Shown here piece by piece: positions 663-37,900 of a DNA stretch of 64,000 bases. Position 1 is the first letter of the stretch; each line of letters begins with the position of its first letter. Position numbers and translations under genes: made by a program. This DNA comes from Spirosoma aerolatum (GTDB lineage: Bacteria; Bacteroidota; Bacteroidia; Cytophagales; Spirosomataceae): assembly GCF_002056795.1 (NCBI RefSeq), contig NZ_CP020104.1, positions 6,147,501 to 6,211,500 of the forward strand, in the 5' to 3' direction. A model generated the notes under the pieces. That model saw nothing but the letters and a program-made list of their open reading frames with translations, did no database searches and was not told the DNA's origin.

Positions 663-2126
663 TCATTGTGTGGCCAACATCATGATTTGTTCTTCAGTCG
701 CTTCTTCACGGCTCAGTTCGCCCGTAAGCTGGCCGTCACGAATCACCAGAATACGGTCGGCGAGGGCCAGTAGTTCAGGAAGTTCACTCGAAATAAGCAG
801 CATGCCCTTGCCCTGAGCCGCCAGGCCCCGGAGAATAGCGTAAATTTCTGCTTTGCCCCCTACGTCGATGCCATGCGTTGGTTCATCAACAATCAGTACG
901 TCGGGGTTGACCAGCAACCAGCGAGCCAGCATTGTTTTTTGTTGGTTCCCGCCACTCAGATTACCCGCTATCTCCCGGACAGAAGGCGTTCGGATGCCTA
1001 GTTGCTGACGAAATGATTCGGCTAAAGACCTTACCCGATTCCGATTATACCAGGGCCCTGATGCTGGCGACTGGGCCGCAACTATATTCTGAGCAACAGA
1101 CTGTTCTATGAATAAGCCCAGTCGTTTACGTTCTTCGGGCAGGTAGCCAATCCCATACCGGACGGCATCAGCCGGGTGCGCAATAGTCACTACCTCCCCA
1201 TGAAGCTGGACGGTACCTGAATCGTGTTTGTCGATCCCAAAAATAGCCCGCGCAATTTCCGTTCGCCCGGCCCCTACCAGGCCTGCCATACCCAGAATTT
1301 CACCCTTATGGAGCTGAAAACTGATCTGTTCAAACCGCTCACCCGACAGGTTTTGAATCTGAAGCAACACCTCATCCGTGGCGGATGACGAACTTTTCTC
1401 CGCCATTAAACGCCGACCAACCATTCGGCTAATAAGCGCATCGGGCGTGGTGCTGGTCATTTGGTCTGTTCCCTGGTAGCGTCCATCTTTCAGCACCGAA
1501 ACCCGGTCGGCCAGTTCGAATAGTTCGGGGAGTCGATGCGAGATATAGACGATGGCTTTACCCTCTGTTCGTAACTGCCGTAGTAACGCAAATAAGGTGG
1601 CCGTTTCTCGGTGTGTAAGGGAGGCCGTTGGTTCATCCAGTAGTAAGATTGCCGGATTTTGCGACAAGGCCTTGGCAATTTCAACCATCTGCTTCTGCCC
1701 CGGCGACAGTTCACTCACCAACTCCTGCGGCCGGATATCGGGTAAGGCAAGTTCATTCAGTAAAGCCTGCGTATGGGCGTGTAAGGTTTTATACTGGATT
1801 AAACCAAAGCGGTTTTTGGGCTGGCGATTTGCATATATATTTTCCGCGACGGTCAGACTATCGACCAGACTCAGTTGCTGGTAAACGATAGCAATGCCCA
1901 ATGCAGTTGCATGGGCCGGGTTCTCGATCTCAACCGCCTGTCCGTTCAGCAGAATCTGACCTGAATCGGGATGCAGGTTCCCTGTCAGTATATTCATTAA
2001 CGTGCTTTTACCAGCCCCATTTTCACCACAGAGGGCATGAATTTCGCCCGAATCAACGGATAGTGATACGTTATCAAGCGCCATTACGCCGGGGAATTGT
2101 TTGGTTATGTTGAGTAGCTGAAGCAT
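663..2126 (-). CDS. Sugar ABC transporter ATP-binding protein, RbsA/MglA type
   Basis: Cytoplasmic ATPase of a CUT2-type sugar importer, about 487 residues with two fused ABC domains. The first domain has a canonical Walker A (GENGAGKST, about residues 34-42), signature LSPGQKQ and Walker B LLLDEPTASL. The second has the degenerate Walker A usual for this family (GLVGAGRTE), signature LSGGNQQK and Walker B VDEPTHGID. The ATG at 2126 was chosen because homologous proteins begin a few residues before the NITKQFPGV motif; an in-frame TTG at 2141 would overlap the preceding stop codon. It lies directly downstream of the Gfo/Idh/MocA gene and should pair with the permease (7637-8581) and binding protein (8578-9588) of the same locus. 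The likely cargo, from context, is D-apiose. Confidence 0.93.
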   Translation of the reverse strand: MLQLLNITKQFPGVMALDNVSLSVDSGEIHALCGENGAGKSTLMNILTGNLHPDSGQILLNGQAVEIENPAHATALGIAIVYQQLSLVDSLTVAENIYANRQPKNRFGLIQYKTLHAHTQALLNELALPDIRPQELVSELSPGQKQMVEIAKALSQNPAILLLDEPTASLTHRETATLFALLRQLRTEGKAIVYISHRLPELFELADRVSVLKDGRYQGTDQMTSTTPDALISRMVGRRLMAEKSSSSATDEVLLQIQNLSGERFEQISFQLHKGEILGMAGLVGAGRTEIARAIFGIDKHDSGTVQLHGEVVTIAHPADAVRYGIGYLPEERKRLGLFIEQSVAQNIVAAQSPASGPWYNRNRVRSLAESFRQQLGIRTPSVREIAGNLSGGNQQKTMLARWLLVNPDVLIVDEPTHGIDVGGKAEIYAILRGLAAQGKGMLLISSELPELLALADRILVIRDGQLTGELSREEATEEQIMMLATQ

Positions 2127-2137
2127 ACGCGGTTGGA

Positions 2138-3184
2138 TCAATTTGTCAGGTTAACAACTTCATTCCGCCGGGCCGAATCATAGGCGGCATAGACCAGCCG
2201 GATCGTCTCGAAATTATCGGAACCTGTGGTTTCGGCAGGGCCAGTAAGGGACCGATTTTGCAGCTGTAAATCAGCAAGTAAGTTTTGATTACAGGCAACG
2301 ATAGATGAATGAACGAGCGCATACGCCGGATCGGCCCACGCATAGTTGGAGGGTGGCACCGTGGTGGTTGTCGTTCCGGCAGCGGTTGTCGTTTTGAGCA
2401 CATAGTCGTTGGTCAGCACCAGCGAACCGGCTGATCCTTCAATGCTGACGAGCGTTTGCGGAAAGGCTTCTTTTTCCAGAATAGAAGCATATGACATCTC
2501 CACGTAGCAGCTCAGGCCACTCTTCATACGGAGCAACACGTTGGCTACATCTTCTCCTTTAATGTGGGGATTTATGCGTGCCGTCTGGCAATAAATCGAC
2601 TGTGCTTCGCCGAACAGAAATCGGGTAATATCCAGAATGTGTGACCCAATATCGGTTAGAATAAACTGCTCCAGCTCGGCCAGAAAAGGTTGATTATCGA
2701 AAACCGGGAAGGCCGAGCAGAAACTGACCCTTGCTTTAAACGCCCTACCAATCACGCCTGACTCCAGTACTGTTTTAACGGCTCGAATAGGCGTTTGCCA
2801 GCGAAAATTTTCGTGAATATATAGTCGGGTTCCCGCTTTTTGGCAGATTTCCAGCATCTGTCTGGCCTCATGGAGGCTTGGTCCCATGGGTTTCTGACAA
2901 ATCACATCCAGTCCCCGTTCGGCTGCTTTCCTGGTGAAATGCAGATGTGTATCCACATCCGTGATGATATCTACGAAGTCGAGTTCGTGTGCATGATGGT
3001 CCAGCAGTTCATCAATCGAATCGTACACATTTGGGACGTTGAACTGCCGGGCAAACGCATCGGCTCTGGCTCTGGTACGGTTATAGAGTGCAATCAGTTC
3101 AACTCCGCCAACGGTAAACCAGGCAGGAATCTGATAGTTAGCCCAAAATCCTGTTCCAATTACAGCAAATTTTAACGACTTCAT
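2138..3184 (-). CDS. apsD: Gfo/Idh/MocA oxidoreductase, candidate D-apiose dehydrogenase
   Basis: A 348-residue NAD(P)-dependent dehydrogenase. Rossmann motif GTGFWANY lies near the N-terminus (about residues 10-17), the conserved Lys is in CQKP (replacing the usual EKP) near residue 97, and the substrate-domain motifs HENFRWQ and TDIGSHILD are present. No signal peptide, so cytoplasmic. In the described D-apiose pathway ApsD belongs to this family and oxidises apiose to apionolactone. The assignment here rests mainly on the neighbours: a GH140 apiosidase, an ApnO-type protein and an OiaC-type TIM barrel. Family membership is certain; the substrate is inferred. It is the first gene of the minus-strand transcript and is followed after about 11 bp by the ABC ATPase. 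Confidence 0.72.
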   Translation of the reverse strand: MKSLKFAVIGTGFWANYQIPAWFTVGGVELIALYNRTRARADAFARQFNVPNVYDSIDELLDHHAHELDFVDIITDVDTHLHFTRKAAERGLDVICQKPMGPSLHEARQMLEICQKAGTRLYIHENFRWQTPIRAVKTVLESGVIGRAFKARVSFCSAFPVFDNQPFLAELEQFILTDIGSHILDITRFLFGEAQSIYCQTARINPHIKGEDVANVLLRMKSGLSCYVEMSYASILEKEAFPQTLVSIEGSAGSLVLTNDYVLKTTTAAGTTTTTVPPSNYAWADPAYALVHSSIVACNQNLLADLQLQNRSLTGPAETTGSDNFETIRLVYAAYDSARRNEVVNLTN

Positions 3185-3292
3185 TCCGTGTAACGTTTTT
3201 CTACGACGTATAATTTGTAGAGCTGCGAGCCGTAGTAACTGCTAATAGCGGACTGCTCTACGGCAACTATTTTTACTTTTTAAACGATTTTG

Positions 3293-3322
3293 TTTGACTA
3301 TTTCAAAAAGGCAGTACATTTG
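3293..3322 (+). promoter_or_regulatory. Bacteroidota-type promoter for the GntR-led operon
   Basis: TTTG at 3293-3296, an 18-nt spacer, then TACATTTG at 3315-3322. This matches the Bacteroidota sigma consensus TTTG (-33) and TAnnTTTG (-7) with normal spacing, about 100 bp before the GntR start codon. Transcription would begin near 3328-3330. Confidence 0.6.
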
Positions 3323-3351
3323 TCTCACTGTACTCTACTCTACTGTACTGC
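3311..3351. promoter_or_regulatory. Candidate operator with repeated TGTACT half-sites
   Basis: GCAGTACA (3311-3318) and TGTACTGC (3344-3351) form a perfect 8-bp inverted repeat. ACTGTACT also occurs twice as a direct repeat 15 bp apart (3327-3334, 3342-3349). The cluster overlaps the -7 element and presumed start site of the promoter at 3293-3322. AraR-type GntR regulators bind TTGTAC/GTACAA half-sites, so the adjacent regulator is the obvious candidate to bind here. Binding is inferred. Confidence 0.45.
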
Positions 3352-3420
3352 TTAAACTGTGGAGCAAATGTAGTTTCTTTTGCCTTATTCACAAGAAAAT
3401 CTAAAAAAGTAGCACATCAT

Positions 3421-4461
3421 ATGCCAGATAGCCTTGTCGATCTGCCAACAGCCCAGCCTAATGCGGCCCAGCCTGATGCGGCTCAACCAAAATATCAGCA
3501 GTTAATTGAAACTATCCTGGTGGGTATTGAACAGGGAACACTGGAACTGGGTCAGCAACTACCCTCCATCAATGAGTGGGCCAGTAATCAGGGGGTAGCG
3601 AAAGTGACTGTAGCGAAAGCTTATGAAGACCTTCGGCAACGGGGCGTTGTACGGTCGCAGCATGGTAAAGGATTTTACGTAGCCAGCACCAACGTACGAA
3701 CATCGCTGAATGTGCTGATGATTTTCGATACACTCAATGCCTATAAGGAAACCCTGTACGATGAATTGAAGGCGGCTTTACCAGCCGATGCCAGCCTGAG
3801 TGTATTCTTTCATCACTACAACCCCAGCGTGTTTGAATCACTGATCCGGAACAACCTCGGCCGATACAACGCCTACGTAGTCATGCCCCATTTCGATAAC
3901 GATGTAACGGATACTGTAGCGCTGATTCCGGCCGATAAACTGCTACTGCTGGATCAGCTATTGCCCAATCTGCCAGGCGATTATTCCGCAGTTTATCAGG
4001 ATTTCGAACAGGATATTTATCAGGCGCTGACTGCTGCGTTTGAACAACTGAAACTATACAGCAGCCTGACCCTGGTGCAGTCGAAAGACCGGTTTCAATA
4101 TATTCCGGCGGCTACGCTGGCGGGTTTCCAGCAATTTGGTCAGGATCATAACTTCCCCTGCCATATTGTCGACTCCTATTCGGATGCGTTAGTACGGGCA
4201 GGAGAGGCTTTTCTCTTCTTTGCCGACCGGGATCTGGTTTCCTTCCTGAAACAGGTTGACCGCCTGGGCCTCAGGCTGGGTCAGGAAGTGGGACTATTAT
4301 CGTACGACGATACGCCGATGAAAGAAATTCTGGCTGGAGGAATAAGCGTTATCTCAACCGATTTTGCCCAGATGGGTCAAACAGCGGGTCGATTGCTGAC
4401 CAGCCGCCAGCGCGAGAAAATTGCCAACCCCGGCGGATTAATCCGGCGAAACTCCCTGTAG
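3421..4461 (+). CDS. GntR-family regulator with LacI-type sensor domain (AraR-like)
   Basis: A 346-residue repressor-type regulator. After a short AQP repeat (AQPNAAQPDAAQPK, residues 11-24) there is a GntR winged helix (about 25-92, with GQQLPSINEWA and KVTVAKAYEDLRQRG), then a periplasmic-binding-protein-like effector domain (about 95-335, with FFADRD and LLSYDDTP segments). This architecture is that of AraR and related sugar-responsive repressors rather than FadR or HutC types. It heads the plus-strand operon and stands divergent to the dehydrogenase and ATPase genes, so it probably controls both arms of the locus. The effector is likely apiose or a catabolite of it (inference). The start ATG is about 100 bp after a well-formed promoter. 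Confidence 0.88.
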   Translation: MPDSLVDLPTAQPNAAQPDAAQPKYQQLIETILVGIEQGTLELGQQLPSINEWASNQGVAKVTVAKAYEDLRQRGVVRSQHGKGFYVASTNVRTSLNVLMIFDTLNAYKETLYDELKAALPADASLSVFFHHYNPSVFESLIRNNLGRYNAYVVMPHFDNDVTDTVALIPADKLLLLDQLLPNLPGDYSAVYQDFEQDIYQALTAAFEQLKLYSSLTLVQSKDRFQYIPAATLAGFQQFGQDHNFPCHIVDSYSDALVRAGEAFLFFADRDLVSFLKQVDRLGLRLGQEVGLLSYDDTPMKEILAGGISVISTDFAQMGQTAGRLLTSRQREKIANPGGLIRRNSL

Positions 4462-4464
4462 GTC

Positions 4465-5283
4465 ATGCAACTTGGAATCGGGACATATACGTTTGGCTGG
4501 GCGGTAGGAACACCCGGCAATCGCCCAGATCACCCGCTCGACGAACTGGGCCTGTTGAACCGCGCAACCGCGTTGGGGTTCAGCCTGGTTCAAATTGGCG
4601 ACAATTTACCCCTGCATACGCTGTCTACTGAACAATTATGTGCCTTTGAGCAACAAGCCCAACAACAGGGCATCCGGCTGGAAGTTGGCGCACGCGGGCT
4701 AACAGAAACCAATCTTGATCAGTATATCAACTTGGCTGCAGGCCTGAAAAGCCGGTTGCTCCGCTTCGTGATTGATTCATCTGCTTACGAGCCAACCCTC
4801 GATACGGTCATTGGCATTCTGAAAAACGCGGTGCCCAGCCTGAAGAAGGCAAAAATTACACTGGGTCTGGAAAATCATGATCGATTATTGGCCCGCGAGT
4901 TTGCTCATATTGTTGAACAGGTTGGGAGTGAACACCTCGGTATCTGTCTGGATTCTGTCAACTCAATGGGCGCGGGAGAAGGACTGGCTGAGGTCGTACA
5001 AACATTAGCGCCGTACACGGTCAATCTGCACCTGAAGGATTTTGGTATCCGGCGATTATCCCATTTGATGGGTTTTCAGATTGATGGACGACCCGCCGGG
5101 CAGGGTCTATTGAACATACCATGGCTGGTAGAGCAGGTAGCCACTCGCAGCCGCTGCCAGACCGCCATTTTAGAGCAGTGGGTAGTGCCTGAGTCAACGC
5201 TGCCAGCCAGTATCGATAAAGAGGAAAACTGGGTAACCGATAGCATAAATTACCTCATAAACAGCAACTTATTTACTAGATAA
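4465..5283 (+). CDS. oiaC: TIM-barrel isomerase/epimerase-like enzyme, candidate 3-oxo-isoapionate decarboxylase
   Basis: A 272-residue cytoplasmic protein of the xylose-isomerase-like TIM barrel family (AP_endonuc_2). Visible metal-site and barrel motifs are LGLENHDR (about residue 133), GICLDSVNSMG (about 154), NLHLKDFGI (about 190) and AILEQWV near the C-terminus, giving the usual Glu/Asp/His/Glu set. It starts 4 bp after the regulator stop codon and precedes the ApnO-type gene. In the published apiose pathways OiaC belongs to this fold and decarboxylates 3-oxo-isoapionate to L-erythrulose. The fold call is firm; the specific reaction is inferred from context and a generic sugar isomerase or epimerase cannot be excluded from sequence alone. 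Confidence 0.68.
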   Translation: MQLGIGTYTFGWAVGTPGNRPDHPLDELGLLNRATALGFSLVQIGDNLPLHTLSTEQLCAFEQQAQQQGIRLEVGARGLTETNLDQYINLAAGLKSRLLRFVIDSSAYEPTLDTVIGILKNAVPSLKKAKITLGLENHDRLLAREFAHIVEQVGSEHLGICLDSVNSMGAGEGLAEVVQTLAPYTVNLHLKDFGIRRLSHLMGFQIDGRPAGQGLLNIPWLVEQVATRSRCQTAILEQWVVPESTLPASIDKEENWVTDSINYLINSNLFTR

Positions 5284-5318
5284 AGTACCCGTTCATTTTT
5301 TCAACGTATCTAAATAAA

Positions 5319-6152
5319 ATGACCAAAATTGCTTTAGTGGGCGCGGGCGGCAAGATGGGCTGCCGACTAACTGACAACTTTTTGAAACTGGCTACGTATG
5401 CGGTTTCCTACCTGGAAATAGCACCACAGGGTATTGAAAACCTTCGGCAGCGGGGCGTATCCGTTAGTGAACACAGTGCCGCCATTGCCGATGCTGATGT
5501 TGTTATTCTGGCCTTGCCCGATGTGGCCATTGGCAAGCTTTCAGAGCAGATTATTCCGCAAATGAAGTCCGGCGCACTCGTGCTGACACTGGACCCGGCA
5601 GCCCCGCTGGATGGGGTAATTGCCCACCGCGACGATCTGGGTTATGTGATCGCGCATCCCTGTCACCCGTCGGTGTTCAACTGGGAGCCAACCGAAGCAG
5701 CTTTCCGGGATTTTTACGGCGGCATCTCCGCAAAGCAATCCATCGTGGTGGCACTTATGCATGGCACAGAAGCGCATTATACGCTGGGCGAACAGGTGGC
5801 GCAGGACATGTATGGACCGATTAAGGATACCCATCGAATTACGCTGGAACAAATGGCCATTCTGGAACCGGCTATGGTGGAAACGCTCGCCCAGACCTGC
5901 ATGGAAGTCGTGAAAGAAGGCTTCGACCGAATTGTAACCCTCGGCGTTCCTGAAGCTGCCGCCCGCGACTTTGTGCTGGGTCATCTGCGCATTCAGATTG
6001 CGGTGCTGTTCAGGGAGGTCAATGGGACGTTTTCCGATGCAGCGTATAAGATCTCGAAACGTGCCAAACCCATTCTGTTTCGTGAAGGCTGGGAACGCAT
6101 TTTTGACATGAACGACATCCGCGAACAGGTCAAGGATATTACAGCCCGCTAG
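5319..6152 (+). CDS. apnO: Candidate D-apionate oxidoisomerase (ApnO family)
   Basis: A 277-residue NAD-binding protein. It opens with an unusual Rossmann loop, GAGGKMGCRLTDN (about residues 8-20), then DVVILALPD (about 60-68) and AHPCHPSVFN (about 111-120). A phosphogluconate-dehydrogenase-type C-terminal helical domain follows, with LEQMAILEPAM, GVPEAAARDF and GHLRIQIAVLF. The combination GAGGKMG plus HPCHP is what I associate with D-apionate oxidoisomerase, which oxidises and rearranges apionate to 3-oxo-isoapionate. Length fits that family. It lies 35 bp after the TIM-barrel gene and upstream of a GH140 apiosidase, which is strong context. It is cytoplasmic, with no signal peptide. Confidence 0.78.
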   Translation: MTKIALVGAGGKMGCRLTDNFLKLATYAVSYLEIAPQGIENLRQRGVSVSEHSAAIADADVVILALPDVAIGKLSEQIIPQMKSGALVLTLDPAAPLDGVIAHRDDLGYVIAHPCHPSVFNWEPTEAAFRDFYGGISAKQSIVVALMHGTEAHYTLGEQVAQDMYGPIKDTHRITLEQMAILEPAMVETLAQTCMEVVKEGFDRIVTLGVPEAAARDFVLGHLRIQIAVLFREVNGTFSDAAYKISKRAKPILFREGWERIFDMNDIREQVKDITAR

Positions 6153-6206
6153 TATGAAGTCGGTTTATCGGCGTTTAACGACCCTATTCTCTTTCGTTAC
6201 TAAACC

Positions 6207-7595
6207 ATGAAACAGTCTATTTTTCTACTCTTGTTTGTTGTAATACAGGGTCTGGTTATGGCCCAGAAGCCCTTCACTGGTGGGCGGCTGAAGGTGTCTG
6301 ACAACAAACGTTATCTGGTCCACCAGAACGGCACTCCTTTTTTCTGGATGGGCGATACGGCCTGGGAGCTCTTTCATCGACTAAACCGCGAAGAAGCGGA
6401 TCAGTATCTCAGGCACCGCGCCGAACAGGGATTTACAGTAATTCAGGCGGTGGCGCTGGCCGAGTTCGATGGGCTCAAAGAACAAAACCCCTACGGTGAA
6501 GTACCCCTTCAGGATAATGACCCCACCAAACCCAACGAAGCCTATTTCAAACACGTCGATTACATCATCGACAAAGCGGCCGAGTATGGTCTGGTGATCG
6601 CATTTCTACCCACTTGGGGCGATAAAGTTTTCAAGGACAAATGGGGCAACGGACCGGAGATTTTCAACCCCACGAATGCCAGAACGTATGGCCAATACCT
6701 GGGAAATCGCTACAAAAACCGCGAAAATATCGTCTGGGTGCTGGGTGGCGACCGGCAACCCCGCGATGGTTCATCGGATGTAGAAATCTGGCGGGCCATG
6801 GCCGCCGGGATTCAGCAGGGCGTTGGCGGTACGGCAAAGCCGCTTATGACCTATCATCCACAGCCCAACGGCCTGGCTGGAGGAGCATCGAAATGGTTTC
6901 ATAAAGATGACTGGTTCAGTTTTAATATGCACCAGAACGGCCACTGCCGCAATACAGCTATGTACGATAACATCACCATATCCTACAACCTCCAGCCAAC
7001 CAAGCCAACGATGGATGCCGAACCGATCTACGAAGATCATCCGGTTTGTTTTAATGTTAAAGACCTCGGTACGTCCAATGCCTATGATGTGCGTTTGTAC
7101 GCTTATCTGGATCTGTTCGCAGGGGCACATGGACATACCTACGGCTGCCACGACATCTGGCAAATGTATAGCGCCAAACGACCGGCGGTCAATGGCCCAC
7201 ACATCTACTGGCAGGAAGCTATGGACCTGCCCGGTGCCAATCAGATGAAACATGTTCGAAAATTGATGACGTCCCGGCCACTTCTTGACCGTGTGCCCGA
7301 CCAGTCGCTCATTGTCGAAAACAACCTGAGTCCGGCAGAACGTATTCAGGCCACTCGAGGTGCCGACTACGCCTTTGTGTATACAGCCGTTGGTAAGCCA
7401 TTCACGGTGAACCCCGCCAAGATTTCCGGCAAAAGCATTACCGCCACCTGGTTTGATCCCCGAACGGGGAAAACGCAGTCGGCAGGTACGTTCGATAATC
7501 AGAAGCCATTTCAATTCAAGCCGCCCACGCAGGGTTACGGACAGGATTGGGTACTGGTGCTGGACGATGCCGCCAAAAATCACGCTGCTCTTTAA
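6207..7595 (+). CDS. GH140 family glycoside hydrolase (DUF4038), candidate apiosidase
   Basis: A 462-residue exported enzyme with a signal peptide (about 1-19, ending LVMAQ). The body is a DUF4038 TIM barrel (about 25-365): FFWMGDTAWELFHRL near the start, WVLGGD with Asp 182, and TMDAEPIYED with Glu 272. A C-terminal collagen-binding-like domain follows (about 370-455, with ATWFDPRTGKTQ). The founding GH140 enzyme, BT1012 of Bacteroides thetaiotaomicron, is an apiosidase acting on rhamnogalacturonan II with an Asp and a Glu catalytic pair; Asp 182 and Glu 272 sit at comparable places. Its position inside a locus of apiose-catabolism homologues makes D-apiose release the best call. Likely periplasmic; no T9SS tail is visible. 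Confidence 0.82.
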   Translation: MKQSIFLLLFVVIQGLVMAQKPFTGGRLKVSDNKRYLVHQNGTPFFWMGDTAWELFHRLNREEADQYLRHRAEQGFTVIQAVALAEFDGLKEQNPYGEVPLQDNDPTKPNEAYFKHVDYIIDKAAEYGLVIAFLPTWGDKVFKDKWGNGPEIFNPTNARTYGQYLGNRYKNRENIVWVLGGDRQPRDGSSDVEIWRAMAAGIQQGVGGTAKPLMTYHPQPNGLAGGASKWFHKDDWFSFNMHQNGHCRNTAMYDNITISYNLQPTKPTMDAEPIYEDHPVCFNVKDLGTSNAYDVRLYAYLDLFAGAHGHTYGCHDIWQMYSAKRPAVNGPHIYWQEAMDLPGANQMKHVRKLMTSRPLLDRVPDQSLIVENNLSPAERIQATRGADYAFVYTAVGKPFTVNPAKISGKSITATWFDPRTGKTQSAGTFDNQKPFQFKPPTQGYGQDWVLVLDDAAKNHAAL

Positions 7596-7636
7596 CTAAG
7601 TCGAGCGTTTACTAACCAACATTTATAGCTAACAGG

Positions 7637-8581
7637 ATGCGCATACTTCTTCAGGAACGAATCTATTCGCTGACATTAACGATTTTGCTGGTGGGCGTTG
7701 GCGCGACAATAGCTTTTCCGCAGACGTTTCCAACCATGGGAAACTGGAGTCAGCTCCTGCTGAATCTGAGTAACGATACCATTGTGGCCATCGGGATGAT
7801 GCTGCTGTTAGTATCCGGGGCTTTTGATTTATCAGTTGGCTCGGTCGTTGCGTTTTCGGGTGGAGTGGCCGCGTATGGTATGATGGCATTGAACCTGCCC
7901 ATACCCCTGGCACTGCTCACAGCACTGGCCTGCGCCGGGGTTATCGGGCTTGCGAATGGTTATCTGATTGCTTATCAAGGCATAAATCCCATGATTCAGA
8001 CGCTGGCCACCATGGGTATCGTTCGGGGTGGAGCGCTCCTAATGGGTGGCTCCGGTATTCAGAATCTACCCTACTGGTTTAATGCCATCAGTCAATCCCG
8101 CCTGCTGGGGGTACAGATGCCCGTATGGTACATGTTGATGCTGGTGGGTACGTTTGCTTTCCTGATGAATAAAACGATATTTTTTCGGCGCTACTACTAC
8201 ATTGGCGGCAACGAACGAGCAGCAGAACTGTCGGGAATCCGCGTTAAAAAGATGAAGCTCTGGGGCTTTGTCATGACCTCTTTACTGGCTGGAGCAGCTG
8301 GTATTTTGCTAGCCTCCCGACTCGGCACCGCCTTGCCCACCGCAGGCCGCGGCCTGGAACTCAGGGTGATTACGGCCGTCATTCTGGGGGGGGCCAGTTT
8401 GTCGGGTGGGCACGGCAAAATTCCCGGCGCGTTGCTTGGTGCGGTATTCATGGGGCTGGTCAGCAATGTAATGGTACTCGCCCGGGTGTCGGGCTACTGG
8501 CAGGAAATCATTCTCGGTCTGATTTTAATTACCGCCGTCTGGACCGATAAAGCCCTACAAAAACGGGTGACTCTATCATGA
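7637..8581 (+). CDS. Sugar ABC transporter permease, RbsC type
   Basis: A 314-residue inner-membrane permease of the BPD_transp_2 family with about eight hydrophobic segments. Diagnostic motifs are GAFDLSVGSVVAFSG (about residues 56-70), NGYLIAYQGINPMIQTLATM (about 110-130) and VILGGASLSGG HGK (about 249-261, EAA-like loop region). It forms the membrane channel for the ATPase at 663-2126. Its stop overlaps the start of the binding-protein gene (ATGA at 8578-8581), showing translational coupling. CUT2 sugar importers are uncommon in Bacteroidota glycan loci, which generally use SusCD with MFS or SSS permeases. Confidence 0.93.
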   Translation: MRILLQERIYSLTLTILLVGVGATIAFPQTFPTMGNWSQLLLNLSNDTIVAIGMMLLLVSGAFDLSVGSVVAFSGGVAAYGMMALNLPIPLALLTALACAGVIGLANGYLIAYQGINPMIQTLATMGIVRGGALLMGGSGIQNLPYWFNAISQSRLLGVQMPVWYMLMLVGTFAFLMNKTIFFRRYYYIGGNERAAELSGIRVKKMKLWGFVMTSLLAGAAGILLASRLGTALPTAGRGLELRVITAVILGGASLSGGHGKIPGALLGAVFMGLVSNVMVLARVSGYWQEIILGLILITAVWTDKALQKRVTLS

Positions 8582-9588
8582 AAAAACTACTGTTATTCAG
8601 CCTCCTGGGCGTGGCTTCCTGTGAGCTGCCTCCCCGTCAGGGTTCGACTGCCGGAGTAGCAAACACCTTTACCGAAACAACCCCGCCAGGCGCTACGGAA
8701 GAGTACGTCATGGTGACAACTGCCGTGTCGATGCCCATGTACGTTAACCATGATCAGGCTACGTTCCTCCGTTGGGGCCGTGCGCACAAGGTGAAGGTAT
8801 CCATTCTGGGGCCTGCCGATTGGGACGTTCCGGCACAGATTAACACGATTGAGGAGGTGATTGGCACCCGTCCGGCGGGTTTACTTATCAACGGCACCGA
8901 TCCGGCCATTGGGCCGGTTCTTAACAAGGCAGTGGCGGCAGGCATACCCACGGTGGTGTACGATTCGGATATACCGAACTCAAAACGCCATGCCTTCCTG
9001 GGCACCGACTGGTATGAGATCGGTAAGATGCAGGGCAACGAGATGGTGCGGTTATTGGGCGGGAAAGGCAAAATCGCCTACATGGGTATTCTGGGCCTCA
9101 CCAACATGGAAGCGGGCTTTCGGGGGCTACTGGATGTGGTAAAGAACTACCCCGGCATCGAAATCGTCGGAAAATTTGACGATAAGGCCAACGTGGAAGA
9201 TGCTGCCCGGATCACTTCCGATCTGCTGGCAGCCCACCCCGACCTGGCCGGGTTGTGTGGCTTCGACTCCAACTCAGGACCAGGCATGGGGTTGGCCGTG
9301 AAAGAAGCCGGACGCGTCGGAAAGGTGAAAATCACTACGGTCGACTGGGAGCCGGAGCACCTTCAACTCGTTCAGGAAGGGGTTATCCAAATGCTGGCGG
9401 GTCAAAAACGAGAATTGTTTACCTGGTATGGGGCTCAGTTCCTGTATGATATGGTTCATCAAACCAACCGGCTTTCGGCTCATGATGAGCAAGCTGGCAT
9501 CACCAATATCCCTACCGCAGTGAATACGGGATTACTACGTATCACGAAAAAAAATGTGAATGAATTTATCAGCCGTTCGGCCAACTAG
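8578..9588 (+). CDS. Sugar-binding lipoprotein of ABC importer (Peripla_BP_4)
   Basis: A 336-residue substrate-binding protein of the RbsB type. The signal ends in GVASC with Cys 15, a lipobox, so it should be anchored to a membrane facing the periplasm. The mature protein shows the two-lobe ribose-binding fold: MVTTAVSMPMYVNHD, RPAGLLINGTDP, PTVVYDSDIPNSKR, FLGTDWYEIGKMQGNEM, CGFDSNSGPGMG and TTVDWEPEHLQLV. It is the last gene of the plus-strand operon and overlaps the permease stop by 4 bp. The ligand is inferred to be D-apiose from the catabolic neighbours; ribose, xylose or another aldose remains possible. Confidence 0.9.
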   Translation: MKKLLLFSLLGVASCELPPRQGSTAGVANTFTETTPPGATEEYVMVTTAVSMPMYVNHDQATFLRWGRAHKVKVSILGPADWDVPAQINTIEEVIGTRPAGLLINGTDPAIGPVLNKAVAAGIPTVVYDSDIPNSKRHAFLGTDWYEIGKMQGNEMVRLLGGKGKIAYMGILGLTNMEAGFRGLLDVVKNYPGIEIVGKFDDKANVEDAARITSDLLAAHPDLAGLCGFDSNSGPGMGLAVKEAGRVGKVKITTVDWEPEHLQLVQEGVIQMLAGQKRELFTWYGAQFLYDMVHQTNRLSAHDEQAGITNIPTAVNTGLLRITKKNVNEFISRSAN

Positions 9589-10622: not shown

Positions 10623-11993
10623 TTATTTAGCTTTTCGCACCGGCATGGATGCGCCGACTTCCTGCCGCCAGTTACGGAGCAATTTGGCTAATTCAGCGGT
10701 TTTAGCCGTATTATTCTGGCTTAGGTCATGCGATTCACTAAGGTCGTTACGTAGGTTGAACAGCTCGCGCTGACCCGTTTCGTAGCTCTCCACCAGTTTC
10801 CAGTCGCCCAGACGAACGGCTCCGGCCGGTCGTCCCAACTGATTGCTGAAATGCGGATAATGCCAGAAAATAGCGCCCCGATTAAGTGAGTCGGTTGGGT
10901 TTGTCAATAACGTCCGAAAACTTCGGCCGTCGGGTGTTTCCTGAGTCGGTATGGGGTGGCCAATCAGGTCCAGCAGTGTGGGAGTAAAATCGGTATTGAT
11001 AACGTAACTGGTTGCTGTCTGGTTCTGCGGAATCGTACCCGGCCAGCTCACCACCAGCGGCACCCGAATTCCACCTTCGTAGACATGGCCTTTCCATTTC
11101 CGAAGCGGAGCCAGATTGGTTGGCGTTGGACCCAGTTCGGGCAATCCTACGCCCCCATTATCGGATGTAAAAATGACGAGGGTGTTTTTAGTTAGTCCCA
11201 ACTCGTTCAATTTCGCCACGATCCGCCCTACGCCGTCGTCGAGACTTTCGAGCATGGCTGCGTAGTACGGATTGTAGTCTTCGCCCCACTTATTGTAATT
11301 CATCAGGTATTTATTCAGCTTGTCGGCACGGGGTATAATCATAACATGGGGAGCCGAATAGGGCACATACAGGAAAAAGGGCTTCTGGCGGTCGGCCTGC
11401 TGAATAAAGTCAACGGCGTAGTCGGTCAGTTTATCGGTCAGATACGCCTGACCGTTGTCACGGAATTCGGTTTTATAGCTATCCTCATAAATACCATACT
11501 TGTAATAATCCAGCCCATTACGACCAATAACCCGGGTATAGCCAAATCCCTGCGACCAGGGGGCCAGTGAATCAGCGCCCCCCAGATGCCACTTCCCGAC
11601 CATTCCCGTCTGATACCCCAGTGTGCGTAAGCGCTCAGCGAGCGTTACTTCTGAACTGGGCAGGTATTGCCGCCAGGGAGCCGGATCGACAGGCGAAAGG
11701 GAATCGGTTCGTAGACCACCCAGAAAATTGGTCAATTGAAGGCGGGCCGGGTGCTTGCCTGTCAGTATAGCAGCCCGACTGGGTGAACAAACCGGACTAG
11801 CGGCATAGGCTTGTGTGAACCGAATGCCTTTCCGCGCCAGCGAGTCAATAAACGGCGTTTGGTGGCGTTTATGACCATAGCAGCTCAGATCGGTATAACC
11901 CAGATCGTCGGCTACAATCAGGACGATATTCGGTCGGGGTGACTGAGCCATTATCCCCATAGGTAGTAGTAGCAGGAAAAGGAGTTGCTTCAT
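10623..11993 (-). CDS. Exported sulfatase (arylsulfatase family S1)
   Basis: A 456-residue sulfatase with a signal peptide (MKQLLFLLLLPMGIMAQ). The metal site begins VLIVADDLGYTDLSCYG, and the formylglycine signature is CSPSRAAILTG (about residues 67-77), where the Cys would be matured to formylglycine. Further conserved parts are GKWHLGG (about 136-142), APHV and TSDNGG (about 280-285). It hydrolyses sulfate esters, presumably on a glycan, in the periplasm or at the surface. A PA14 remnant follows in the same frame, so the present C-terminus (VRKAK) may be a secondary truncation, although the catalytic domain itself looks complete. The other sulfatase lies 23 bp upstream on the same strand. 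Confidence 0.92.
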   Translation of the reverse strand: MKQLLFLLLLPMGIMAQSPRPNIVLIVADDLGYTDLSCYGHKRHQTPFIDSLARKGIRFTQAYAASPVCSPSRAAILTGKHPARLQLTNFLGGLRTDSLSPVDPAPWRQYLPSSEVTLAERLRTLGYQTGMVGKWHLGGADSLAPWSQGFGYTRVIGRNGLDYYKYGIYEDSYKTEFRDNGQAYLTDKLTDYAVDFIQQADRQKPFFLYVPYSAPHVMIIPRADKLNKYLMNYNKWGEDYNPYYAAMLESLDDGVGRIVAKLNELGLTKNTLVIFTSDNGGVGLPELGPTPTNLAPLRKWKGHVYEGGIRVPLVVSWPGTIPQNQTATSYVINTDFTPTLLDLIGHPIPTQETPDGRSFRTLLTNPTDSLNRGAIFWHYPHFSNQLGRPAGAVRLGDWKLVESYETGQRELFNLRNDLSESHDLSQNNTAKTAELAKLLRNWRQEVGASMPVRKAK

Positions 11994-12016
11994 AACAGCT
12001 TACTGTCTATTGCAGT

Positions 12017-13687
12017 TTATTCTTTCATTTTCAGCTCTTTACTGGGCAAATAGCCAATTCGCTGCGCAACGACCCGTAATGAATCGCCCGGCTGGAGCAT
12101 CAATATCTGGCCACTATATACCTGCCAGACATTGGCTTGATCCGTGCCATGTTTGAGAATATACCCTACTGAAGCCCCCGGTGTAGCGCATCGAATACGA
12201 ATGGTATGCCCGGTTTTTACCAGTTCTGGCGAAGCGGTTTTTGGGGGCTCATTTCCCCCATTCCACATCTGTTTTAGCATGGCTGCCTCAGAAACAGCGC
12301 TCTTATCCCCCACCTTTTTCAGCCAGGCATCCATCTGGCCACGTAATTCCTCAAGCTTGGCCTTGTATTTCGGATTGTCGACCAGATTGGTAAACTCATC
12401 GGGATCAGTTTGGGTATCGCATAGTTCTTCGGCGGGTTTGGTCGGGCGGAACCACATCATCTGGGTTGCGTTCAGTTTGCCTTCGTCGCGGAGTTGCAGC
12501 AGTTCCTTCATCATCGGCATATTCAGTCGGAATTCAATGTTCTGGTAGTACGGTTTTTCGGGCATGAAATTCCGGTAGTACTTAAACCGCCCATCGCCCA
12601 CGGCCCGTACCCGATCTACCGGCATATCCATCCGATCTCGCCCGGCAAAAATGTAGTTACGTGGTGATTTAGCCTCCTGCGCTCCTAAGAAAGCCTGCCC
12701 CTGAATATACTCAGGAATCGGAATGTTGGCCAATGACAGCACCGTAGGCGCCAGATCGACAAAGCTAATGAGTTGGTCATCTATTGATCCCACACGGCCA
12801 GCGCCTTTGATGCGGAACTGCTCAGGAATCCGAACAATCATGGGTACACGTAGCCCCCGGTCATACACTTCCCGCTTCACGAAGGGGAGTCCATCGCCGT
12901 GATCGGAATAGAAAAAGATAATCGTGTTATCGTAGAGGCCGTCGTCTTTGAGTTGCTGAATGATGCCGCCCATGATCGAGTCCATCCGCATTACGTTGGT
13001 CAGATTTCGGGCAATGTCATGTCGTACGGTTTTGGTATCAGGATAATAGGCTGGGACGATCACCTCTTCGGGCCGAACCAGCAGCGGCTCCTTTTCCCTT
13101 GACCAGATTTGCGACTCATGGGTTATAACGGAGTTAAAGATGGCAAAGAAGGGCTTACCAGTAGGCCGGTTTCGCCAGTGGGCTTTTGGGCTGCTTTCGT
13201 CCCATACCGTAACGGGAGGCAGAAACTGGTAATCCTGTTTTACATTATTGGTACAGTAATAGCCCGCTTTACGTAGGTATTCCGGAAAGCAATGGACATA
13301 ATCTGGAATCACAGCCGAATACGTTTTCACGGGCGAAAATTTATGCGGATACGGATCGCCCTGTAGTGTACGCATGTGCTGAGTTCCGATCGACATCTGA
13401 TACATACCCGTAATAATGGACGACCGACTGGGTGCGCAAACCCCAGCCGTTGAATACACATGCGAATACCGGACGCCTTCAGCAGCCAGTCGATCAAGAT
13501 TAGGTGTTTTCACCTGCTTGTCGCCAAAACAGGCCAGATGATAGGACATATCCTCGCAGGTAATCCAGAGAATATTCGGACGTTCAGGTACCTGAGCCGC
13601 TGGCTCGCGAATCGAAAAAGAGGCCCAACCCGATAGCTGGGTAGCCAGACCTACCAGAATGGCAAACAGTGGAAATCGATAAGTCAT
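12017..13687 (-). CDS. Exported sulfatase, heparan N-sulfatase-like
   Basis: A 556-residue sulfatase with an N-terminal signal (to about residue 22). It has ILWITCEDMSYHLACFG for the metal site, the signature CAPSRSSIITG (about residues 84-94) with the Cys that becomes formylglycine, FYSDHGDG (about 256-263) and RVPMIVRIP. Asp/His placement and the CEDMS opening resemble the sulfamidase-type branch of family S1. The last 80 or so residues (from about 470) look like a beta-rich C-terminal domain seen on some surface glycan enzymes. It is followed by the 456-residue sulfatase and is likely co-transcribed with it. The substrate is unknown; sulfated plant or algal glycans are possible. Confidence 0.9.
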   Translation of the reverse strand: MTYRFPLFAILVGLATQLSGWASFSIREPAAQVPERPNILWITCEDMSYHLACFGDKQVKTPNLDRLAAEGVRYSHVYSTAGVCAPSRSSIITGMYQMSIGTQHMRTLQGDPYPHKFSPVKTYSAVIPDYVHCFPEYLRKAGYYCTNNVKQDYQFLPPVTVWDESSPKAHWRNRPTGKPFFAIFNSVITHESQIWSREKEPLLVRPEEVIVPAYYPDTKTVRHDIARNLTNVMRMDSIMGGIIQQLKDDGLYDNTIIFFYSDHGDGLPFVKREVYDRGLRVPMIVRIPEQFRIKGAGRVGSIDDQLISFVDLAPTVLSLANIPIPEYIQGQAFLGAQEAKSPRNYIFAGRDRMDMPVDRVRAVGDGRFKYYRNFMPEKPYYQNIEFRLNMPMMKELLQLRDEGKLNATQMMWFRPTKPAEELCDTQTDPDEFTNLVDNPKYKAKLEELRGQMDAWLKKVGDKSAVSEAAMLKQMWNGGNEPPKTASPELVKTGHTIRIRCATPGASVGYILKHGTDQANVWQVYSGQILMLQPGDSLRVVAQRIGYLPSKELKMKE

Positions 13688-14292: not shown

Positions 14293-14877
14293 TTATAAAG
14301 CACCCAGTTTCTCTAATGATTTCTGCACATAAACCCGTAGACTCTTCAGGGCTACGTTGAGAGTGTTGTAGACCGTTTTTATGGATATATCCATCACCTC
14401 AGCGGCTTGCTGATACGTCAGCCCTTTCATGTACACCAGATAAAGTATCTCTTTCTGGCGCTTGGGCAGTTTGTTCAGTTCTGCCCTGACTACCCAGTTT
14501 TGCTGGTCGGCCAATTCCCGTTCAACCATGGCCTGCTCATAGGACTGACTGAAAAGATCGGCCTGATCAAAATGGTACTCCTCCGAAGACAACCGCTTCA
14601 GCCGACTTACTGCATCCAGCAACCGACGGCGCAAAGCCCGGTAGAGATAGAACCGGATGTTATCGGTAGCACCCAGCCGATCCCGGTTTTCGTATATATG
14701 CAGAAACAAGCCGTGCAGGCAATCTTCAACGAGAGGCTTGTTCCGAACCAGGTTATACCCATACCGATACAAATCTGCCGCAAACAAATCATAGAGCTGC
14801 GAGAAAGCGTCGCGGCTTCCGGCACGACAGGCATTCCACAACTGGACGTGTTCGCTGGTAGTCAGTCGGTTATTCAT
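14293..14877 (-). CDS. ECF-type RNA polymerase sigma-70 factor
   Basis: A 194-residue sigma factor with region 2 (about 25-92, including YRYGYNLVRNKPLVEDCLHGLFLH and FYLYRALRRRLLD) and region 4 helix-turn-helix (about 130-185, including LPKRQKEILYL, MKGLTYQQAAEVMD and SIKTVYNTLNVALKSL). This is the RpoE-like group that in Bacteroidota normally partners a FecR anti-sigma and a SusC-type transporter. No FecR gene is adjacent here. It lies 17 bp downstream of a glycan-enzyme gene at the very end of the minus-strand PUL and is followed by a strong terminator, so it may be co-transcribed with the PUL. Confidence 0.9.
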   Translation of the reverse strand: MNNRLTTSEHVQLWNACRAGSRDAFSQLYDLFAADLYRYGYNLVRNKPLVEDCLHGLFLHIYENRDRLGATDNIRFYLYRALRRRLLDAVSRLKRLSSEEYHFDQADLFSQSYEQAMVERELADQQNWVVRAELNKLPKRQKEILYLVYMKGLTYQQAAEVMDISIKTVYNTLNVALKSLRVYVQKSLEKLGAL

Positions 14878-36892: not shown

Positions 36893-37900
36893 ATGGACAT
36901 TCGCTACTTCATCGGTGTTGACGTTTCGAAAGCTACCCTTGACTGGGCCGTCTTTGATGGCAAAACCATAGTATTGCAAGCTCAATCGGTTAACTCACCA
37001 GCAGCGATTAGGGCCACCGTCAAATTGGTGAAGGCGTTGCCTGGATTTACGGTAATGGAATCGGTCTGCTGTCTCGAACATACAGGCATTTATTGTGCGC
37101 ATCTTTTATCTTCCCTTTACAAATTGAAGCTACCTATTTGGTTGGAAAGTAGTCTTCAAATTAAGAAGGCCGGGGGCCTTCAGCGCGGTAAGAGCGACAC
37201 CATTGACGCAATCCGCATTGCCGAGTACGCCTTCCGTTTTCGAGACAAAATGTGCCTTTGGCAGCCACCAAGGCCTATTCTGCAAAAACTAGCCACGTTA
37301 AGTGCCCTTCGTCAACGGCTTCTTCGCGTTCGCCAGCAACTTCAACAACCTATTGACGAACAGCAGGGCTTCGCGGAAAAGTCACTCCAAAAGCAACTGG
37401 CCCAAAACTGCCAGGCCTCGTTAAAAGCCATCACTGCCGATTTGGCAAATGCCGAAAAACAGATCGATACGCTCATCCAAAGTGATGATCGCTTGAAGGA
37501 GCTTTTTGCCTGGATTACCTCCGTTCCCGGTGTGGGTGATGCCATAGCGACTGAAGTGTTGGTGGCTACCAACGAATTCAAGGCTATCAACGATCCTAAA
37601 AAACTGGCCTGTCACGCGGGTGTGGCACCCTTTGAATACCGATCGGGTAGCAGTGTGCGTGGCAAAACGCGGGTGAGCCAACATGCTCGTTTACGTCTAA
37701 AATCTCTGTTTCATTTAGGGGCCATGTCAGCGATCCGGATGAAAGGTGAGCTACAGACCTACTACCAGCGCAAGGTAGCTGACGGCAAAAATAAGATGCT
37801 CGTTCTCAACGCGGTTCGCAATAAGCTAATCCACCGGGTTTGCTCGGTGGTTCATCGAGAACAGAAATATGACAAAAATTATACGCCAGCGCTTGCATAA
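36893..37900 (+). CDS. IS110-family transposase (DEDD recombinase)
   Basis: A 335-residue transposase. The N-terminal RuvC-like DEDD domain is complete: IGVDVSK (Asp 10), LEHTGIY (Glu 62) and GKSDTIDA (Asp 102 and Asp 105). A coiled-coil segment (about 130-205) leads to the C-terminal Transposase_20 domain with ITSVPGVGDAIATEVL (about 208-223) and HAGVAPFEYRSGSS (about 241-254), which holds the candidate catalytic Ser. No frameshift or truncation is seen, so the element may be active. It separates the kduD-like gene from the IclR regulator, and probably interrupted their common unit. Confidence 0.95.
   Translation: MDIRYFIGVDVSKATLDWAVFDGKTIVLQAQSVNSPAAIRATVKLVKALPGFTVMESVCCLEHTGIYCAHLLSSLYKLKLPIWLESSLQIKKAGGLQRGKSDTIDAIRIAEYAFRFRDKMCLWQPPRPILQKLATLSALRQRLLRVRQQLQQPIDEQQGFAEKSLQKQLAQNCQASLKAITADLANAEKQIDTLIQSDDRLKELFAWITSVPGVGDAIATEVLVATNEFKAINDPKKLACHAGVAPFEYRSGSSVRGKTRVSQHARLRLKSLFHLGAMSAIRMKGELQTYYQRKVADGKNKMLVLNAVRNKLIHRVCSVVHREQKYDKNYTPALA

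Follow-up and report, generated by a model that had tools for sequence, protein, structure and literature searches.

In rhamnogalacturonan II, D-apiose is the sugar that binds borate, and it also caps many plant glycosides; GH140 apiosidases are known from SusCD pectin loci. The oxidative D-apiose pathway of Proteobacteria was reportedly described by Carter et al. in 2018 (Nat Chem Biol 14:696). An excerpt of PMC6302742 credits the RuBisCO-like proteins to Carter et al. 2018. In an excerpt of PMC11747546, Rhodobacteraceae strain LCG007, which has a kinase-type oxidative cluster, was tested for growth on D-apiose and some of the pathway steps are named for it, and an excerpt of PMC13001218, which also cites Carter et al. 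2018, reports growth tests on D-apiose of E. coli lineages that have a transketolase-type route. We analysed a stretch of 64,000 nucleotides from Spirosoma aerolatum (contig NZ_CP020104.1; the whole stretch is called the window), whose positions 663 to 9588 probably constitute a D-apiose utilisation island, with release, import and oxidation of the sugar under one switch. This is very probably a real apiose locus and a variant of the known oxidative pathway. What is surprising is not its presence in Bacteroidota; it is that nearly all of the genomes that we examined lack the known end of the pathway.

As a reference we used plasmid p42f of Rhizobium etli CFN42, which we take to carry an apiose locus whose genes have the activities of the apiose pathway. 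It encodes an ApnO-like protein, a ribose-type binding protein, an ATPase, a permease, a Gfo protein and a 614-amino-acid protein, together with DhaK, DhaL, TPI, RpiB, a four-carbon acid kinase and OiaX. The 614-amino-acid protein passes the ApnL equivalog model (1049.7 bits for a cut-off of 750) and OiaX passes its own (783.9 for 700), while the kinase scores under the OiaK cut-off (473.2 for 700). The binding protein matches 5ibq, presumably an apiose-bound structure, and 4ry0 at about 1e-183, and the Gfo protein matches 5uhw (E 2.7e-191). According to their annotation, plasmids of Microvirga and Rhizobium Q54 carry ApnO with Gfo, an ATP-binding cassette (ABC) importer, a RuBisCO-like gene and a four-carbon acid kinase; Cupriavidus carries ApnO with a RuBisCO-like gene, a four-carbon acid kinase and a TRAP transporter; Paraburkholderia carries ApnO with an OiaK gene; and a stretch of Sinorhizobium medicae carries ApnO, ABC and Gfo genes only.

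The eight adjacent open reading frames (ORFs) of the window locus all lie where a sequence-only reading of this DNA had placed them, each is open over its full length, and Pfam and NCBIfam matches confirmed the families that it had assigned, including the AraR-like GntR regulator between the two divergent arms:

Positions 663 to 2141, minus strand: ABC importer ATPase of the RbsA/AraG type, with a TTG start (NCBIfam AraG 534 bits, under the cut-off of 689; 37% identical to the R. etli p42f ATPase).
Positions 2138 to 3184, minus strand: Gfo/Idh/MocA dehydrogenase, candidate D-apiose dehydrogenase ApsD (GFO_IDH_MocA; 40% identical to R. etli Gfo; best PDB match 5uhw, E 7.4e-78).
Positions 3421 to 4461, plus strand: AraR-like regulator with a GntR helix-turn-helix DNA-binding domain and a LacI-type effector domain (PF00392 and PF13377).
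Positions 4465 to 5283, plus strand: xylose-isomerase-like TIM barrel, candidate 3-oxo-isoapionate decarboxylase OiaC (PF01261, AP_endonuc_2).
Positions 5319 to 6152, plus strand: candidate D-apionate oxidoisomerase ApnO (PF16896, PGDH_C; best solved relative 5t57, E 5.5e-79; 44% identical to R. etli ApnO; placed in the tree below).
Positions 6207 to 7595, plus strand: predicted exported GH140 apiosidase (PF13204, 421 bits, and Collagen_bind_2; 8t9w, E 2.9e-214).
Positions 7637 to 8581, plus strand: ABC importer permease of the RbsC/AraH type (PF02653, BPD_transp_2; 36% identical to the R. etli permease).
Positions 8578 to 9588, plus strand: lipoprotein sugar-binding protein (SBP) of the importer, with lipobox Cys15 (PF13407, Peripla_BP_4).

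The RbsA and Gfo genes overlap by 4 nucleotides, as do the RbsC and SBP genes, and the GntR and OiaC genes are separated by 3 nucleotides. The genome is a single contig of 7.96 Mb. The same eight-gene order was found in loci L022 and L042 to L046, L044 having an additional gene that separates GH140 from RbsC, so that this grouping is not due to chance.

In the pathway that we propose, the GH140 apiosidase would release D-apiose, either into the periplasm or extracellularly, and the lipoprotein-dependent CUT2 importer (SBP, RbsC and RbsA) would take it in. The Gfo dehydrogenase (ApsD) would convert D-apiose to D-apionolactone, an unlinked ApnL homologue would convert the lactone to D-apionate, ApnO would oxidise and rearrange D-apionate to 3-oxo-isoapionate, and the OiaC-like TIM barrel would decarboxylate the latter to L-erythrulose, these steps being those of the known oxidative apiose pathway. 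The GntR/AraR-like repressor would act on one operator over both divergent transcription starts and would be released once its LacI-type domain has bound apiose or a derivative of it.

Comparison with R. etli p42f showed that the window shares with it an ApsD-like Gfo, ApnO and a CUT2 ABC importer, and that an ApnL homologue is present in the window genome. The two differ in that the window has GH140 in the locus, an OiaC-type TIM barrel in place of OiaK and OiaX, an unlinked ApnL, an AraR-like regulator where R. etli has one annotated NanR, an SBP of another lineage, and no DhaK, DhaL, RpiB or TPI gene among its eight genes. The LCG007 cluster, as far as the excerpt of PMC11747546 describes it, has an apiose dehydrogenase, an apionolactonase and an apionate oxidoisomerase, for all of which the window genome has candidate homologues. 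We then counted these genes in 79 ApnO loci drawn from the best 80 of 257 relatives (54 loci of at least 15 kb and 25 shorter; thresholds of 30% identity, or 50% for ABC genes, and half coverage). OiaC was found in 64 of them, Gfo in 57, ApnL in 43, GH140 in 37, the window-type SBP in 23, OiaK in 17 and OiaX in 15. For a tested pair of OiaK and OiaX homologues from sibling loci, those models were the best NCBIfam matches (450 and 473 bits, respectively, for cut-offs of 700).

The identity of the GH140 protein as an apiosidase is, from its sequence, near-certain. Its PF13204 domain is full length (protein residues 31 to 360), it begins with a signal peptide as read from the sequence, and its closest solved relative, 8t9w, is titled 'Apiosidase'. 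It matches the solved apiosidases 8t9w and 3kzs/5msy over its full length, and its D182 and E272, which we take to be the catalytic Asp and Glu, align with 8t9w and 3kzs; unlike those enzymes, it is coupled to ABC import and oxidation and does not lie in a SusCD pectin locus. A second apiosidase-like protein with a DUF5060 domain (L022:14745-16382), found in 6 of the 85 sources whose ORFs were clustered, has no counterpart in the window locus. The ApsD and ApnO candidates resemble the R. etli proteins at 40% and 44% identity. No ApnO or OiaC model was among the NCBIfam matches of the window proteins, so that both of these names are putative and rest on homology and context.

At the locus the SBP, the permease and a double-domain ATPase occur together, as expected of a CUT2 ABC sugar importer. 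Cys15 of the SBP is invariant in the 21 aligned sequences, whose mean column identity is 70%. The nearest solved relatives of the SBP are binders of other sugars, 3g1w and 2h3h being the best, and the arabinose binder 6sw4 ranks fifth. This last match, the AraR architecture of the regulator and the fact that the best models for the ATPase and the permease are those of arabinose AraG and AraH would fit a locus serving another pentose-type sugar or acid, for example one related to arabinose or xylose, with the ApnO and OiaC homologues acting on a related acid and GH140 a mere neighbour. We consider this very unlikely, since the AraG and AraH scores are also under their cut-offs, GH140, ApsD-like, ApnO and ApnL genes repeatedly co-occur in loci, and sibling loci hold OiaK- and OiaX-like genes, though these score under the cut-offs of those models. 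Among the 79 loci, 26 carry a different RbsB-type SBP and 5 a permease of the ureide/sugar-transport families. Permease and SBP lie in one ORF of 649 to 662 amino acids, an apparent fusion, in three Dyadobacter loci and in genome G103 (L058:12368-14317, L060, L081 and L041).

The 236-nucleotide gap between the Gfo and GntR genes holds an element, ACTSTACTSTACTSTA, which was derived from these loci, and the following predicted features:

Positions 3293 to 3322, plus strand: predicted Bacteroidota-type promoter of the plus arm, made of TTTG (3293 to 3296), 18 nucleotides and TACATTTG (3315 to 3322).
Positions 3327 to 3350, no strand assigned: operator ACTGTACTCTACTCTACTGTACTG, predicted site of the GntR regulator, at both predicted transcription starts.
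Positions 3365 to 3372, minus strand: predicted -7 element of the minus-arm promoter, CAAATGTA, which is TACATTTG reversed.

A search of the whole 7.96-Mb genome with ACTSTACTSTACTSTA, allowing at most one mismatch, gave two overlapping exact matches at one place (3327 to 3350) and no other, while the reversed control pattern gave none. A wide GntR regulon using this operator was rejected on the strength of this single genomic place. In 2.5 Mb of collected DNA (duplicates counted) the element has 13 sites, all within 12 distinct loci; two of these loci (L032 and L049) have no recognisable adjoining GntR gene. TAnnTTYG was found at most 45 nucleotides upstream of the operator at 10 of the 13 sites, CAAAnnTA at most 60 nucleotides downstream at 9, and both at 8, compared with about 4% and 5%, respectively, in mononucleotide shuffles. 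Both motifs fit what we take to be the -7 element of the Bacteroidota promoter consensus, which is why the operator is placed at both transcription starts. No operator was found beside more distant GntR genes, namely those of Dyadobacter L178 (56%), Prolixibacteraceae L093 (44%) and L063 (35%).

No ApnL gene was found in the window locus. ApsD, ApnL and ApnO homologues are all present in the genome, the ApnL homologue being unlinked and under its equivalog cut-off; it is the only one, an open ORF of 509 amino acids (G000:C1:5662460-5663974) about 484 kb from the locus. ORF clustering placed a putative ApnL family (median 619 amino acids) in 44 of the 85 sources, some of which are the same locus twice. 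Two representatives of this family matched no Pfam family, and matched only the D-apionate lactonase model of NCBIfam (259 and 254 bits for a cut-off of 750). In Spirosomataceae, ApnL is present in 18 of 20 genomes with ApnO and in 35 of 130 without it (Fisher 8.6e-8, a value that is too kind because the genomes are related), and the two ApnO-bearing genomes without ApnL are fragmented (820 and 570 contigs). GH140 adjoins ApnL in 5 of 20 contexts from genomes of the family, which ties some ApnL genes to apiosidases. In four of these five, which come from Spirosoma genomes that have no ApnO (L165, L168, L169 and L170), a full-length GH140 match is divergent from ApnL, so that ApnL also occurs outside the carriers of ApnO. 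Dyadobacter psychrophilus (G087) splits the set between a GntR-Gfo-ApnL group in L178 and a GH140-OiaC-ApnO-ABC group in L058, each of which supplies the gap of the other.

Divergent from the distant ApnL of the window genome is a GH140 remnant (L125:10644-11018; G000:C1 about 5664140), 84% identical to residues 19 to 143 of the window GH140 (125 amino acids), after which the frame breaks. The location of ApnL outside the locus beside this broken copy, together with the missing terminal kinase described below, could mean that the island is decaying or incomplete in this strain and that growth on apiose has been lost. This is distinctly unlikely: all eight genes are open over their full length and the operator is conserved, ApnL is itself an open ORF, and most other genomes that bear such a locus lack this kinase too.

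The alignment of the TIM barrel, which we presumptively call OiaC, with its relatives (70 rows) has 25 sites conserved at 97% or more, among them E136, D163, H189 and E237, which are by analogy presumed metal ligands. The score of the window protein on this signature (25/25) is by construction, because it is one of the aligned rows. Its structure model, built with 38 of 46 listed relatives, has a mean predicted local distance difference test (pLDDT) score of 95.7. The homologues of Marivivens and Pararhizobium have 25 of the 25 sites and adjoin a dihydroxyacetone kinase gene. Those of Pantoea and Erwinia have 21, with a TPI-family gene on one side, an ApnO gene on the other and a dihydroxyacetone kinase adjacent. 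The Pantoea At-9b and Erwinia E602 units (MFS, DAK kinase, TPI family, TIM barrel, ApnO) resemble the window in having an OiaC-family TIM barrel beside an ApnO relative, at 40 to 41% identity, but they have a kinase and an isomerase while the window genome has no Dak1; the role of these units in apiose use is putative. Genes annotated like ApnO are present for Pantoea and Erwinia, while none was found within 8 kb of the other proteobacterial OiaC relatives (L126, L127, L129 and L130). Four other TIM barrels that we scored had 15, 15, 5 and 22 sites, the last, from Deinococcus, being one that may belong to the family. The signature and the kinase neighbourhood of the relatives support the assignment of the TIM barrel as a putative OiaC.

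Several results weigh against the reading of this stretch as an apiose island with the pathway given above. The ApnO and ApsD candidates are less than 50% identical to the reference genes, the SBP is only 28% identical to the R. etli SBP, over 172 amino acids, and its match to 5ibq is far down the list (E 3.3e-9). The distant ApnL scores 269.8 bits for a curated cut-off of 750; 15 of the 20 ApnL contexts have no adjoining GH140, and 35 of the 130 ApnO-less genomes of the family still carry ApnL. The genome search found no operator copy at the distant ApnL, so that by this site ApnL would not belong to the regulon. The Roseibium homologue of the TIM barrel (L129) has 25 of the 25 sites with no dihydroxyacetone kinase annotated nearby, as is also the case for the Shinella relative (L130), and OiaC occurs together with OiaX, which would be redundant, in 5 of the 79 loci. 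Finally, Dak1 (PF02733) was absent from the window genome in a search that was positive in 3 of 14 control genomes, from all 150 Spirosomataceae genomes, and, among 32 further genomes whose loci hold OiaC, from 30, the exceptions being L112 (Paenibacillus) and L059 (a Croceivirga metagenome-assembled genome, MAG). The 32 genomes were hand-picked across phyla and many are MAGs of unstated completeness; three of them (L099, L107 and L115) may not need Dak1 because OiaX is in the locus.

We looked for other ways in which the pathway could be completed. An OiaX elsewhere in the window genome was rejected, as no PF00016 match was found (5 of 14 control genomes were positive). An OiaK elsewhere was also rejected: the genome's two NBD_C kinases have weak matches to D-threonate kinase models (88 and 121 bits, compared with 450) and none to OiaK at E 1e-10. 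A kinase carried near the loci was rejected too, since no kinase family matched at least two of 67 neighbour ORFs scanned (67 of the 167 listed ORFs of 220 to 620 amino acids, single-member families being only partly listed). In loci L022 to L120, tblastn at E 1e-10 with R. etli DhaK, DhaL, TPI and RpiB gave no match. With Dak1 and OiaX absent and no kinase family shared by two or more of the scanned neighbour ORFs, the known route onward from L-erythrulose is not there. The claim of the sequence-only reading that this was a complete-looking catabolism locus was thus wrong: ApnL is about 484 kb away and the genome has neither a Dak1 kinase nor a RuBisCO-like OiaX. Its claim of an apiose pathway stands for the apiosidase, ABC import, ApsD- and ApnO-like oxidation, the OiaC-like step and the AraR-like regulator, though not for completeness. 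We tentatively suggest, as a possibility somewhat short of even, that the OiaC branch in Bacteroidota, Verrucomicrobiota and Acidobacteriota ends by an undescribed route in which L-erythrulose is used without a Dak-family kinase. Our guesses for such a route would be L-erythrulose as a direct transketolase donor or a kinase of another family.

The missing Dak1 kinase, which should follow OiaC, also bears on the TIM barrel, which could be another enzyme of the route, such as an isomerase or an epimerase, and not the decarboxylase; its coexistence with OiaX in 5 of the 79 loci, the lack of a match to a curated OiaC model and a fold family rich in isomerases point the same way. On the other hand, the TIM barrel is found without OiaX in 59 of the 79 loci and OiaX without the TIM barrel in 10 (5 loci have neither), and its relatives with 21 to 25 of the 25 sites adjoin dihydroxyacetone kinases; those of Pantoea and Erwinia have ApnO and a TPI-family protein as neighbours as well. 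We therefore regard another function as unlikely and retain OiaC as the candidate. OiaC, OiaX and OiaK occur together in L099, L105, L107, L115 and L117 (Flammeovirgaceae, Saprospiraceae and related MAGs), an arrangement that looks redundant, and Rhabdobacter roseus has two ApnO loci, one of the OiaC type and one of the OiaX/OiaK type (L051 and L096).

Of 150 Spirosomataceae genomes, 20 carry ApnO, that of the window included; the identity is 78% or higher in 19 of them and only 49% in the remaining one (G103). A phylum sample of 395 Bacteroidota gave 8 ApnO matches at E 0.001, of which 2, including that of the window, were strong and 6 were weak and partial. PF02653 permeases score above the cut-off in 160 of the 395, an upper bound for sugar importers because branched-chain amino acid permeases fall under the same model, and match at E 0.001 in 59 of 170 genera. 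The suggestion that the combination may be new for the phylum was thus overstated, the gene set being present in many Bacteroidota and recurring across Bacteroidota, Verrucomicrobiota and Acidobacteriota. Among the papers listed in searches of an open-licence library, none pointed to the use of apiose by Spirosoma or to the oxidative pathway in a member of the Bacteroidota.

In a tree of 84 ApnO rows, made by a quick search without bootstrap and with many rows from MAGs, the window protein falls within a 53-row clade with a Shimodaira-Hasegawa-like approximate likelihood ratio test (SH-aLRT) value of 100. This clade comprises Bacteroidota, Verrucomicrobiota and Acidobacteriota, with one Abditibacterium, one Planctomycetota, one row labelled Rubrivivax and one unassigned; its loci, some of which are short, show no OiaX or OiaK, and the rows of R. 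etli and Paraburkholderia fall elsewhere in the tree. The Pantoea row has an implausibly long branch and its placement is unsure. When the window is compared with the Verrucomicrobiota loci, ApnO shows 69 to 77% identity and OiaC only 42 to 53%, indicating an unusually strong constraint on ApnO.

Beyond the island, the window carries two sulfatase-family genes (10623 to 13687), which lie between it and a polysaccharide-type locus on the minus strand (14293 to 35609). The latter encodes two GH39-like and two heparinase-like proteins, an RraA-like aldolase, an SDR, a zinc dehydrogenase, an SSF symporter, SusD and SusC; its ORF at 14293 to 14877 resembles a sigma factor, as judged by eye. An IS110-family transposase gene is located at 36893 to 37900.

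For a Bacteroidota sugar sensor, these results provide a precise operator and a divergent promoter pair, both predicted. The fate of L-erythrulose becomes a defined missing step, in a culturable genus. In this Spirosoma a single switch would govern the whole sequence from the release of one rare sugar through its uptake to its oxidation, and relatives of the locus occur in at least three phyla.

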